Assembly: GCF_000739615.1 (NCBI RefSeq)
Contig: NZ_BATP01000005.1
Location: 1-64,000, forward strand
Direction of reading: 5' to 3'
Length of the DNA: 64,000 nucleotides
DNA from: Haloferula sp. BvORR071
Lineage (GTDB): Bacteria > Verrucomicrobiota > Verrucomicrobiia > Verrucomicrobiales > Akkermansiaceae
Shown here piece by piece: positions 38,428-43,566 of this stretch. Both the position numbers and the translations under genes were made by a program. The first letter of the stretch is position 1, and every line of letters begins with the position of its first letter. A model generated the notes under the pieces. The model searched no databases. It was not told the DNA's origin and was given only the letters and a program-made list of their open reading frames with translations.

Positions 38428-38591
38428 ATCCGCACAGCTCCGAACCGACAGGACATCGGCACAATCGATCAAGCTCGGGAGAAGATCATCAAAGGCTCGT
38501 CATTGGCATAACTCTAGGCACCACCTAGCGGAGTAAAGCCAGCACAGAATCTTGTCGCATCCGGCGTTAGATTCCGCTATCGCGACTGGTG

Positions 38592-40253
38592 ATGAAGACT
38601 GCCTTCCACAAGCTCAGGACTCAATTCCGCGATGTCTCGCCGAAACAGGGGCAAGCGGTCGGCAATCTTCATCGCTGGCTTGAAGAGCACGCCGCGGATG
38701 TGGCCGCGACCAAACCGGCGGCGGAGTTCAATGGCACGATGCTGCAGGGCTTTCACTGGTATACCGACGGCGACGGACAGCACTGGAAGCGGCTCGCGGA
38801 ACTTGCTCCTTCTCTGGCAGCGGCGCACTTCACCGGGATCTGGTTTCCGCCAGCCTCCAAGGCCATGGGCGGGACCAATGATGTCGGTTACGGGATCTAC
38901 GATCTCTTCGATCTCGGTGAATTTGTCCAAGGCGCGAACCCGAAGCCGGGCGGCGAGACGCGGACCAAGTACGGGACCCGTGAGGAATACATCGCCGCGG
39001 TCCACGCCTGCCGCGAGCACGGCATCGAGGTATATGCCGACGTCGTCTTCAACCACAAGATGGGCGGCGAGTTCGAGGAAGAGTATGAGGCCATCCCCTT
39101 CGACCCCGCGGACCGCAACCGCGCCCTGGACGGGGTCAACCTGATCAAGTCCTATACCGGCTTCGATTTCCCGGATCGCAAGGGCAAGTATTCGACGATG
39201 AAGTGGCGCTGGCAGCACTTCGGATCCGTGGATTACAACAGCCTGCGGCCGGAGTTCCGGGCGATATGGAGGAAGAAGGACAAGCCCTTCGACGAGGAGG
39301 TAGACCTTGAGAACGGCAACTACGACTTCCTGATGGGCTGCGACCTGGACGTGGATCATCCGGAGGTCCGCGGCGAACTGAAGTATTGGGGCAAGTGGAT
39401 GCTGGATACCGCGCCGATCTGCGGCTTCCGGCTGGATGCGATCAAGCACATCGAGAGCGACTTCTTCGAGGAATGGCTGGACGAATTGGAAACCTCCTCG
39501 GGGCGGGATCTCTTCTGCGTAGGCGAGTATTGGACCCCGCGCATCGACACGCTGGTCTGGTATATCGGGAACACCGGCGGCCAACTGAATCTCTTCGACG
39601 CGCCGCTGCAACAGCACTTCCACTTGGCGAGCCAAGCCGGCGGCAACTTCGACATGGGACGGATCCTCGATGGAACCCTGATGAAGGAGTCGCCCATGCA
39701 TGCGGTGACGCTGGTGGAGAATCACGACACCCAACCGTTGCAGGCGCTGGAAGCGGTGGTCGACCCCTGGTTCAAGCCGCTGGCCTACGCGATCATCCTC
39801 CTACGCTCCGAGGGCTACCCCTGTGTTTTCTGGGCCGACTACTTCGGCGCGGACTACACCGGCAAGGGCCGCGACGGGAATGATTACCACATCGTGCTGG
39901 CGAGCCATAAGCGGATCATCGATCTGCTGATGCTCGCCCGCTGGCACTTCGCGCACGGCCCGCAGTACAGCTATCTCGACCACTTCAACACGATCGGCTG
40001 GACCCGACTCGGGACCGAGCAGCATCCACATGCCATGGCCGTGATCCTGAGCGACGGCCCCGAAGGCAGCAAGTGGATGGAGGTCGGCAAGCGGGACACG
40101 GACTTCATGGACATCACCGGGCATGTGAGCGGCAAGATCCGGAGTAATGGGGATGGATGGGCCGAGTTCCGCTGCAATGGCGGATCCGTATCGGTCTGGG
40201 TGGAGGATCACGCGGAGCTGGCGGGGATGATCGCCGCTTTGCCCGGAGATTGA
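38592..40253 (+). CDS. Alpha-amylase, GH13 subfamily 5 type
   Basis: The 553-residue enzyme hydrolyses internal alpha-1,4 bonds of starch or glycogen. The GH13 motifs are all present: YADVVFNHK, the nucleophile in GFRLDAIKHI (Asp282), the acid/base in VGEYW (Glu312) and the stabiliser in ENHDTQP (Asp379). The conserved GIWFPPASKAMGGTNDVGYG marks the subfamily of Bacillus liquefying amylases. Unlike those, it has no signal peptide, so it probably acts in the cytoplasm on stored glycogen or imported dextrins. The start is the ATG giving MKTAFHKLRT; a GTG codon directly before it could be used. It ends 18 bases before a GAPDH-like gene on the other strand. Confidence 0.93.
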   Translation: MKTAFHKLRTQFRDVSPKQGQAVGNLHRWLEEHAADVAATKPAAEFNGTMLQGFHWYTDGDGQHWKRLAELAPSLAAAHFTGIWFPPASKAMGGTNDVGYGIYDLFDLGEFVQGANPKPGGETRTKYGTREEYIAAVHACREHGIEVYADVVFNHKMGGEFEEEYEAIPFDPADRNRALDGVNLIKSYTGFDFPDRKGKYSTMKWRWQHFGSVDYNSLRPEFRAIWRKKDKPFDEEVDLENGNYDFLMGCDLDVDHPEVRGELKYWGKWMLDTAPICGFRLDAIKHIESDFFEEWLDELETSSGRDLFCVGEYWTPRIDTLVWYIGNTGGQLNLFDAPLQQHFHLASQAGGNFDMGRILDGTLMKESPMHAVTLVENHDTQPLQALEAVVDPWFKPLAYAIILLRSEGYPCVFWADYFGADYTGKGRDGNDYHIVLASHKRIIDLLMLARWHFAHGPQYSYLDHFNTIGWTRLGTEQHPHAMAVILSDGPEGSKWMEVGKRDTDFMDITGHVSGKIRSNGDGWAEFRCNGGSVSVWVEDHAELAGMIAALPGD

Positions 40254-40271: not shown

Positions 40272-41288
40272 CTACCAGCGTCCTCTGAGCAAGCGTTGCT
40301 GAATGACAGCAAGAACCTGATCTCGTTCCGGAAATCCGACCTGCAAAAGAAAGGCGTCCAAAGTTGAGAGCACGGTGTTGCCCTCTTGCGGCACGAAAAT
40401 CCACCCCCGGATGCGGTTTCCCTCCACTAGGAGATTCCCGTCGACCACAATCGCATGCTCGAAGATACGACCTTGGAACCCATAGCGCCGGCCTAGCTCG
40501 AAAACCGAATTGGAATCGAATTTCCCGGTCGTCCCGACCAAAGGATTGGCCGCGATCCTATCCTTGATCTCCTCGCCGCTGGTCTCGTGATCCAGAATCA
40601 AATGGAAACGAGCCGCGTGCATGAGCTGACTGGGTGTCGTGACATCGGAACTGGAAATATTCGGCGCAATCCCGACCGTCTTCCAGAGATCAATCACATC
40701 GATGGCGTGATGGGTGCCGATCACTGGATCGAGATGCCGGGCGACCACGCTCGCCGCAACCAAGCGCTGGTGAGCACCAATATCCTCACAGCGGCGCACG
40801 ACCACCGTGTCGCCTTCGATCAAGCGTTCGAGGTTTTCTCCCGCGAAAGTCTTGAGGACCGCCGCCGTGCCATGGGTATTGCAGGAAACGATCTGGACGA
40901 ACCTAGCCCCTCTAACAGCCGCGGTATTGATCCCCGTCATGAAAGGGATGCCAAATCCCTTCTCGCTTCCCTGTGCACAGGCACCGATCAGACGCGGCAG
41001 ACGCTCGTAGTAATGCTTGAGGGAAAGTGCGGTTCCGTTCTCCGCGCAGTCAAAGACGTAGTCCACATGGGATTCGATCTCGGACAGGAGAGTCATTCCT
41101 GCGATCCGCTCCCTAGAACAAAGGACCGCGCCGCGCTCCCGCAGGATATCGAGATCAGGAAGTTGCCAGGGCTGCAGGCGATTCTTGAGCACCCACAGGG
41201 TCCCAATCCCCAACAGGTCGCGATATTCCAGCAGAAGGTTAATGAGTGTACTCGCAATGTTTCCGGTCCCAACCACTAGAATATTCAT
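40272..41288 (-). CDS. Archaeal-type (type II) glyceraldehyde-3-phosphate dehydrogenase-like protein
   Basis: The 338-residue protein does not match bacterial GapA but fits the archaeal type II enzyme along its length: a Rossmann motif GTGNIASTL, then a substrate-region phrase ACAQGSEKGFGIPF, the catalytic cysteine in VQIVSCNTHGT (Cys136), VVVRR, GTHHAIDV (His193-194), TTPSQLMHAARFHL and a C-terminal FEHAIVVDGN followed by PQEGNTV. Order, spacing and length agree with archaeal GAPDH, which oxidises glyceraldehyde-3-phosphate with NAD(P) and phosphate. Dinucleotide and phosphate dependence are not proven. The preferred start gives MNILVVGTGN; upstream in-frame codons are Arg/Ser-rich. It is alone, tail to tail with the amylase gene. 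Catalytic identity is likely but unverified. Confidence 0.72.
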   Translation of the reverse strand: MNILVVGTGNIASTLINLLLEYRDLLGIGTLWVLKNRLQPWQLPDLDILRERGAVLCSRERIAGMTLLSEIESHVDYVFDCAENGTALSLKHYYERLPRLIGACAQGSEKGFGIPFMTGINTAAVRGARFVQIVSCNTHGTAAVLKTFAGENLERLIEGDTVVVRRCEDIGAHQRLVAASVVARHLDPVIGTHHAIDVIDLWKTVGIAPNISSSDVTTPSQLMHAARFHLILDHETSGEEIKDRIAANPLVGTTGKFDSNSVFELGRRYGFQGRIFEHAIVVDGNLLVEGNRIRGWIFVPQEGNTVLSTLDAFLLQVGFPERDQVLAVIQQRLLRGRW

Positions 41289-41467: not shown

Positions 41468-42001
41468 ATGGAGCCGGATCCGGACATTCCCTTCGTCAAG
41501 CTACTCACGGAGCACCAGAGCGTGATCTGCTCCTTCGTGATCTCGCTGCTGCCGGGGGCGCCGGGGGTGGACGATGTAATCCAGGAGACGAACGCACTCC
41601 TATGGACAAAGCGCAGTCAGTTCGAGATAGGCACGAATTTCCGGGCCTGGGCACTGACGATCGCGCGCTTCCAGGTGATGGTGCACCTGCGCCTGTTGAA
41701 GAAGCGACGCTGGGTGACCTTGGACGATGACGTGGCCGAGTTGCTGGCAGACGAACTGGAGGAGCAAACCGATCCCGAGCTTACCGAAAGCCGGATCGAG
41801 GCGCTGAGCGCCTGCCTCGGCAAGCTGCGGCCCGAGGATCGGGAACTGCTGATGCAGCGCTACTGGCGGAAGATCCGCCTGCAGGATTTCGCGGTCAGCA
41901 GCGGGCGCTCGCTGAGCGGACTGAAGGTCCAACTTTTCCGGCTGCGGGCCGCACTGAAACGCTGTATCGAGGACCGGGTCGGCCGGAAATGCCTGCCATG
42001 A
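41468..42001 (+). CDS. ECF sigma factor, Rhodopirellula/Verrucomicrobium family
   Basis: The 177-residue protein has region 2 (VDDVIQETNALLWTKRSQFE, FRAWALTIARFQVMVHLR) and region 4 (LRPEDRELLMQRYWRKIRLQ followed by SSGRSLSGLKVQLFRLRA). The N-terminal DIPFVKLLTEHQSVICSFV fits the Rhodopirellula/Verrucomicrobium ECF family I know from PVC genomes. Its ATG is preceded by AAGGAAG, one of the few Shine-Dalgarno-like sites here. It shares an ATGA overlap with the FecR-LamG gene downstream, its presumed anti-sigma or sensor. The likely targets are the surface proteins that follow, but promoter evidence is lacking. Confidence 0.9.
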   Translation: MEPDPDIPFVKLLTEHQSVICSFVISLLPGAPGVDDVIQETNALLWTKRSQFEIGTNFRAWALTIARFQVMVHLRLLKKRRWVTLDDDVAELLADELEEQTDPELTESRIEALSACLGKLRPEDRELLMQRYWRKIRLQDFAVSSGRSLSGLKVQLFRLRAALKRCIEDRVGRKCLP

Positions 42002-43566
42002 GTCTTCGCCGTTCCATCCCCCGCCGCCGTCTGGAACAGGTCCTGCAGGACCTGGAAGACGGGGCCTTGAGTGCCGAGGACCACTGGTGGCTGATGTCGC
42101 AGTTGCGCGAGAGCCCGGAGGTCCGCCGCGCCTATCGCGAGCACATGGCCTTCGCCGCCGCGCTGCACGGCTCCGCCGAGGCATGGGCACCGGAACATGA
42201 TTACGAGGAAAAGGTTTTCCAGATTCCCCCACCCCCGCTGTGGCAGCGGCTGCCACGCAAAGCGATCTACGCCGCGGCCGCGCTCATCGCGCTGCTGGCG
42301 GTGGCGGCGAGTTTCCTGGCGATCCGCTCCTCGCGCCTGCCTCCGGTGAAGGTGACCGCTGGTGCCGAGACCCTGTGGGAATACACCAGCGGCGGGATTG
42401 GCCGGGATGGCGAGTTCCTGCCGGGCACGCGGCTGCTGGTGGATCGCGGCAGCTTGGAAATCGTGACGCGGACCCGCACTCGCATGTTTGTGGAAGGACC
42501 CGCCACGCTTGAGATCACCGATCCCGCGCAGGTGAGCCTCTCCAGCGGCAAAGCTTGGTTCGAGTCACCCGATGGCAGCCAGGACCTCACGGTGAATACC
42601 GAGCGCCTGCGCGCGAATGGCGCGGGGGCGCGCTTCGGGGTGGCAGTTTCCACTGCTGGTGACCGGATCCAAGTGGAGGCTGGCAATCTCCGCGTTGAAT
42701 CAAAGTCGCCGGGAATTCCCGTTACCACTCTCGGCCCCGGCCAGGCCGCTACCTCCGATCTAGTAGGTCGCTCGAAACCCGCGCCGGTGGATCCCGGCTT
42801 ATTCCTGGATGAGCTCTCCAGAGAGCCTGCCTATATCCATTGGACCTTCGACGAGGAGAGCTCTGGCGGCTTCCCGGCGAAGTCTGCGGGGATTGAGGCG
42901 GCGCCAATCCGGATCACCGGAGTGAAGGGCAAGGCTGTCACGCCGCAGCTGACCCCAGGCGCCTTCGGGTCGGGTCTCGATCTAACAGGCGGAGACTGTT
43001 TTGCTGAAAGCGACTTTCCCGGCATCTCCGGCAGCGGGCCGCGAAGCGTAGCCCTGTGGATCAAGGGTCGGCCGATCCCGCGCCGGGTCAATGCAAAGCG
43101 CGTGGACTACACGCCCTCCGTGGTGATGTGGGGCGACCAGTCGATCAATGGCGGCAGCTGGACCTTCCGGGCCCACTGCGTCACCGGGATCATCGGCACG
43201 CAGTGGGGCTCCAATGGCCTGCTCACAGCGGGCAAGATCGGCACGATGAGCGTGCTGGACGGCCAGTGGCATCACATCGCCAGCGTTTTCACCGGTGAAG
43301 TTACCGAGACCGGCGAGGTGGAAGTCCGCCACTACATCGATGGTCAGCGCGTATTCACCACCACCGCGGCCATGGATATCGGGGTGGATACACGGCTCGG
43401 TAGCGAACCAGCCAACCGCTTGAGGGTCGCCTGCGATAACCAGATGCCCGACGGGCCGGGCAATGTGCCGGTGTCGGTCGACGAGTTGTTCATCTTCCGC
43501 AGTGCCTTGAGCGACGAGCAAATCAAGACCCTGTATCAGGAGAACCGCTTCATGCTGCGGGAGTGA
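41998..43566 (+). CDS. FecR-domain/LamG membrane protein, sigma partner
   Basis: The 522-residue protein starts with a short cytoplasmic region (RRRLEQVLQDLEDGALSAED) of the kind that binds an ECF sigma, then one transmembrane segment (AIYAAAALIALLAVAASFLA). A FecR-like domain follows (GAETLWEYTSGGIGRDGEFL, RTRTRMFVEGPATLEITDPA, NTERLRANGAGARFGVAV), and the C-terminal ~250 residues are a LamG/concanavalin-like domain (IHWTFDEESSGGFPAKSAG, and YIDGQRVFTTTAAMD). FecR proteins carry a signal from the envelope to a sigma factor. The LamG domain resembles the surface proteins downstream, so the sensor and its targets may bind the same ligand; this is inference. Coupled to the sigma gene by ATGA overlap. 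Confidence 0.86.
   Translation: MSLRRSIPRRRLEQVLQDLEDGALSAEDHWWLMSQLRESPEVRRAYREHMAFAAALHGSAEAWAPEHDYEEKVFQIPPPPLWQRLPRKAIYAAAALIALLAVAASFLAIRSSRLPPVKVTAGAETLWEYTSGGIGRDGEFLPGTRLLVDRGSLEIVTRTRTRMFVEGPATLEITDPAQVSLSSGKAWFESPDGSQDLTVNTERLRANGAGARFGVAVSTAGDRIQVEAGNLRVESKSPGIPVTTLGPGQAATSDLVGRSKPAPVDPGLFLDELSREPAYIHWTFDEESSGGFPAKSAGIEAAPIRITGVKGKAVTPQLTPGAFGSGLDLTGGDCFAESDFPGISGSGPRSVALWIKGRPIPRRVNAKRVDYTPSVVMWGDQSINGGSWTFRAHCVTGIIGTQWGSNGLLTAGKIGTMSVLDGQWHHIASVFTGEVTETGEVEVRHYIDGQRVFTTTAAMDIGVDTRLGSEPANRLRVACDNQMPDGPGNVPVSVDELFIFRSALSDEQIKTLYQENRFMLRE

Follow-up and report, generated by a model that had tools for sequence, protein, structure and literature searches.

The locus and its GAPDH-like gene

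We analyzed a stretch of 64,000 nucleotides (hereafter the window) from contig NZ_BATP01000005.1 of the verrucomicrobial bacterium Haloferula sp. BvORR071, in which a gene resembling archaeal type II glyceraldehyde-3-phosphate dehydrogenase (GAPDH) encodes a protein of 338 amino acids (P0001). This gene is convergent with an alpha-amylase gene and divergent from a sigma-70-type gene (Table 1). An earlier note on this DNA had described an archaeal-type GAPDH-like gene in a bacterium, which we confirm, and had offered three explanations for it: a transferred gene, a second GAPDH with a special, perhaps gluconeogenic, role, or a dehydrogenase of new specificity. The last of these proved to be the best supported. 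Judged by its sequence, the gene belongs to a bacterial family of its own, made up of type II GAPDH-like dehydrogenases, most of which are encoded next to a phosphoglycosyl transferase, an enzyme that initiates sugar chains of the cell surface.

A bacterial family related to archaeal type II GAPDH

A database search returned 723 homologs among 7996 candidates scored. The 120 homologs listed, which show 71-50% identity to P0001 (P0001 itself aside) and include 70 proteins of 338 amino acids, are bacterial wherever the organism is named. P0001 matched the family profile A1, which contains P0001, over residues 1-338 with 563.8 bits. Two peptide patterns retrieved 57 loci from species genomes, a number that is consequently a lower bound. 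Among their titles, 43 name Bacteroidota groups; the others name Spirochaetes, Myxococcota, Verrucomicrobiales, Ignavibacteria, Chlorobi, Leptotrichiaceae, Nocardioides, Planctomycetota, Neisseriaceae, Gammaproteobacteria, or “bacterium” only, and none of the 57 is archaeal.

The closest relatives by sequence and fold are archaeal GAPDHs. The predicted structure of the window protein has the same fold as archaeal type II GAPDH (PDB 1B7G, 1CF2, 2CZC, 2YYY) over 313-319 residues, at an identity of about 20%, and the catalytic Cys and His as well as the RR, HH, QG-EK and QE motifs are common to both. A profile search as proposed in the earlier note (PRK04207/TIGR01546) did recover the NCBIfam GAPDH-II models, but at scores far under the equivalog cut-offs (NF003251: 71.7 bits, cut-off 185; TIGR01546: 53.2 bits, cut-off 232.9). 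Since all 30 members of alignment A1 match both models at E 1e-3 or better, kinship to GAPDH-II is a property of the family. Against Pfam, P0001 matched no GAPDH family, and neither TIGR01534 nor a Pfam GAPDH domain was matched up to E 10; type I GAPDH (gapA, TIGR01534) has the same overall fold and presumably the Cys nucleophile in common. The kinship stated in the earlier note, to archaeal type II GAPDH and not to bacterial GapA, is right.

Residue conservation was counted across 120 rows of listed homologs and compared with 120 archaeal rows (Table 1). We take Cys140 of the Methanothermus fervidus GAPDH to be catalytic and His219 to be the catalytic base there. Arg165-Arg166 may form a phosphate site, the role presumably played by the corresponding archaeal residues. 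Both His of the HH pair are invariant in the family rows. In contrast, the archaeal GPIN, PSHH and PTT segments are replaced in the family: GP, PS and TT are changed in at least 95% of the rows, whereas HH and the P of PTT are kept. From archaeal to window protein, the changes are GP178-179 to LV176-177, PS191-192 to GT191-192, TT215-216 to SQ220-221 and S302 to G303, and archaeal Thr143 is replaced by an invariant His139. Within the conserved loop, residues 170-175 have a predicted local distance difference test (pLDDT) score below 50 in the predicted structure.

Two positions in or beside this loop, Cys167 and Ser180, set the window protein and its close relatives apart from most of the family, departures that possibly reflect a specificity shift in the window clade. 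In the Nocardioides copy L049 (2216-3190), which comes from a metagenome-assembled genome (MAG) and has no adjoining transferase, part of the post-RR loop is seemingly missing by inspection.

Table 1. Coordinates of the GAPDH-like gene, its conserved positions and its flanking genes in the window
Feature	Position	Strand	Observation
Type II GAPDH-like dehydrogenase gene	40272..41288	minus	338 codons + stop; ATG at 41288, stop at 40274-40272
Cys136	40881..40883	minus	Aligned with Cys140 of M. fervidus GAPDH; C in 120/120 family rows and at least 95% of archaeal rows
His224	40617..40619	minus	Aligned with His219 of M. fervidus GAPDH; H in 120/120 family rows and at least 95% of archaeal rows
Arg165-Arg166	40791..40796	minus	Common with archaeal Arg167-Arg168; 120/120 and 119/120 family rows
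Codons 169-186, conserved family-specific loop	40731..40784	minus	In place of archaeal GPIN segment; alignment and predicted structure
Gln301-Glu302 of PQEGNT motif	40383..40388	minus	120/120 family rows
Cys167, beside the loop	40790-40788	minus	In P0001-P0006, 8/120 rows; Ser in 112
Ser180, in the loop	40751-40749	minus	In P0001-P0007, 9/120 rows; Asn in 111
Alpha-amylase gene	38589-40253	plus	Convergent with GAPDH-like gene
Sigma-70-type gene	41468-42001	plus	Divergent from GAPDH-like gene

A sugar transferase as operon partner

Clustering of the neighbouring genes revealed one recurrent gene, encoding a protein of about 165-200 amino acids directly upstream of the dehydrogenase. After leaving out six of the 57 loci that begin inside the gene (L050, L051, L055-L058), the partner was found in 49 of the 51 assessed, the exceptions being L029 and L049; the 49 include L037, where only the last 57 transferase residues are on the contig, L053, with broken copies, and L059, which retains no more than a tail of the dehydrogenase. 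All 12 partners scanned (of 49) are PF02397 sugar transferases. Thus the earlier description of a gene that stands alone holds for the window genome but not for the family, in which a two-gene operon is the norm.

The genes of the pair lie close together: 40 of 42 pairs are no more than 30 bases apart, with the widest spacings in L030 (121 bases) and L033 (88 bases). The two genes overlap in 28 of the 42, in 19 cases by exactly 4 bases. This set omits seven of the 49 paired loci, which have no located start (L005, L007, L010, L013, L052, L053, L059), as well as L061, which appears identical to L046; the spacing in L034 was taken as 0. Among 249 genomes of the order to which the Fluviicola MAG L004 belongs, presumably Flavobacteriales, 13 carry the dehydrogenase (E 1e-30 or better), and the transferase adjoins it in the same 13 (E 1e-45 or better), three of which are new carriers (G863, G933, G945).

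The nearest PDB match of the partner is PglC, the N,N'-diacetylbacillosaminyl-1-phosphate transferase. As in other small monotopic phosphoglycosyl transferases (SmPGTs; PglC-like, PF02397), the DE of the DELPQ region is invariant in 12 partner rows, whereas, relative to PglC, a stretch of about 12 residues behind the KFRTM motif is lacking. This missing stretch would be part of the SmPGT mobile loop, which has been described as substrate-specific (PMC12550135). Judging by titles and abstract beginnings, the matches listed from the openly licensed literature include no paper on the dehydrogenase-transferase pair.

Around the pair, groups of related genomes do have neighbours in common. The pair is preceded in L020 by a membrane-type glycosyltransferase domain (PF13231, PMT_2) and in L042 and L047 by large proteins that lack a Pfam match and look multi-pass by inspection; these give a hint, though only that, of glycan transfer. 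The same five-gene run was seen in a Spirochaetes MAG (L047, 4223-9002) and a Cytophagales MAG (L054), comprising, with roles by inspection, a YARHG-like gene, a large multi-pass-looking protein, an M15-type-peptidase-like protein, the transferase and the GAPDH-like gene. In L059, a small secreted-looking reading frame lies between the transferase and the dehydrogenase tail.

Relation to glycolysis

Some of the 120 listed homologs are named type II or NAD(P) glyceraldehyde-3-phosphate dehydrogenase by one source (JGI). Together with the archaeal GAPDHs as nearest relatives and the conserved catalytic pair, these names favour a true, phosphorylating, NAD(P)-dependent type II GAPDH that would act as a second, perhaps gluconeogenic, enzyme. 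We nevertheless consider this unlikely. The scores lie under both equivalog cut-offs, conserved positions close to the active-site motifs differ (T143 to H139 and the GP, PS, TT and S302 replacements), and the operon partner of the bacterial family, in contrast to archaeal type II GAPDH, is a sugar transferase. Moreover, the window genome contains one ordinary gapA match (434 bits), and gapA exceeds the cut-off in 28 of 31 other family-carrying genomes picked from the 57 loci; G744 and G763 fall just under it (360.7 and 363.2 bits), and the MAG G764 has a weak match only. Replacement of a missing gapA was therefore rejected as an explanation for the window genome and for those 28. As a precedent, which may lie outside the present family, a Pseudoclostridium thermosuccinogenes protein annotated as type II GAPDH has no detectable activity with either NAD or NADP in Escherichia coli cell-free extract (PMC6543838).

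Origin of the window copy

The gene is sparse among close relatives of its host, being present in 1 of 18 genomes of the genus (the window genome only), 2 of 260 of the family, 3 of 189 in the order sample at E 1e-3 (two plus one marginal partial match) and 1 of 387 in the phylum sample at E 1e-20. In the other family match (G160), the pair is present and the dehydrogenase is frameshifted. A Verrucomicrobiales relative (L046 / L061, 1501-2346) likewise has both genes; a frameshift near residue 275, due to either decay or an assembly error, splits its dehydrogenase.

With a GC content of 0.564, the window gene is the lowest of the 46 open reading frames (ORFs) of the window, some of which may be spurious. 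In a quick tree, the window protein clusters with P0002-P0006 (97) and P0007 (97), within a larger group that also holds rows from Myxococcota, Spirochaetes and Nocardioides (85). Because of its sparse distribution, low GC content and placement among other bacterial phyla, the gene was probably gained from another bacterium. A mobile-element origin was rejected, as searches of plasmid and phage records gave no match and viral contigs contained no relative.

A recent transfer of a GAPDH gene from archaea, as raised in the earlier note, would also account for the atypical GC content, the absence from close relatives and the archaeal-type motifs. It is, however, highly improbable, and we rejected it: the listed homologs are far closer to the window protein than the archaeal enzymes are, no archaeal sequences are among its nearest relatives, none of the 57 locus titles is archaeal, and a very long branch separates it from the archaeal rows in the tree, where it groups among bacterial ones.

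The window genome also differs in its transferases. Directly upstream of the window gene, the transferase is absent and the divergent sigma factor is found instead. No short-type transferase was found in the genome, its best transferase match reaching 110.9 bits compared to at least 220.5 for the 13 partners of the co-occurrence test; two of the four matches, on inspection, are proteins of 507 and 289 amino acids.

Proposed function

The reading that we favour, at a probability of roughly 60%, is that these type II GAPDH-like proteins are a distinct bacterial family of aldehyde oxidoreductases that depend on NAD(P) and supply the partner transferase with its sugar for an envelope glycan. Judging from the shared operon, the dehydrogenase would prepare or modify the sugar that the transferase loads on the polyprenol carrier. 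In the proposed reaction, Cys136 would bind an aldehyde group of a phosphorylated sugar or nucleotide-sugar as a thiohemiacetal. With His224 acting as base, hydride would pass to NAD(P), and the thioester would leave the enzyme as an acid (or acyl phosphate). This would yield an activated sugar, which the partner would load onto undecaprenyl phosphate on the way to an envelope glycan. In the window bacterium, which lacks the short transferase, the enzyme may instead supply an ordinary transferase of the genome or a general sugar pathway; here, too, the enzyme probably serves surface-sugar chemistry and not glycolysis. More tentatively, at somewhat less than even odds, the two genes would constitute a hitherto undescribed module. 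In it, a new aldehyde dehydrogenase activity of the type II GAPDH fold would produce or modify an unusual sugar, acidic or oxidised in some other way, and a short-loop phosphoglycosyl transferase would put this sugar on a polyprenol carrier; the result would be a new class of lipid-linked sugars in Bacteroidota and scattered other phyla.

Several points weigh against the proposed function. Substrate, cofactor and reaction are putative. The co-occurrence test is only partly independent, as 10 of its 13 genomes were already known from the 57 loci and the transferase profile A2 was built from paired transferases. Beyond the pair, no conserved sugar-polymer cluster or larger cluster was seen across lineages. 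In the gammaproteobacterial MAG L059 (584-1980), the transferase frame is open and only a C-terminal dehydrogenase tail follows, about 0.7 kb downstream. For the window gene itself, the GC content at third codon positions (0.664) is only the eighth lowest of the 46 ORFs. Finally, three carriers, namely the window genome and the MAGs L029 (Leptotrichiaceae) and L049 (Nocardioides), which may be incomplete, have no short-loop transferase adjoining the gene or found in the genome, and hence the link to the transferase is not absolute. These carriers suggest that the dehydrogenase substrate can arise without the transferase, so that a soluble substrate, such as the aldehyde of a sugar-phosphate or nucleotide-sugar, would be likelier than a lipid-linked one.

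They also count against the view that the protein binds a cofactor but is no dehydrogenase and acts as a regulator or scaffold of the transferase, for instance as a subunit that responds to redox state. The overlapping genes and matching occurrence would fit such a complex, for which the flexible, conserved loop at 170-186 might provide the docking site, but the invariance of the Cys, both HH His, His224, Arg165 and QE in 120 rows makes such a non-enzymatic role unlikely.

If an aldehyde oxidoreductase serving envelope glycans is correct, this would be a new role for a GAPDH-fold enzyme. The JGI names put some family members in central carbon metabolism; by the evidence of the operons, their place is in the glycan chemistry of the cell surface. 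The proposal would also mark a subfamily of phosphoglycosyl transferases that is directly testable in the named strain Paenimyroides tangerinum YIM 102701-2 (L041).

Neighbouring genes in the window

Upstream of the GAPDH-like gene (41468-43566), the gene after the sigma-70 region 2 factor encodes a Laminin_G_3 protein, which also has a sub-cut-off FecR match, and the genes beyond also have, by inspection, the look of LamG-type secreted proteins.
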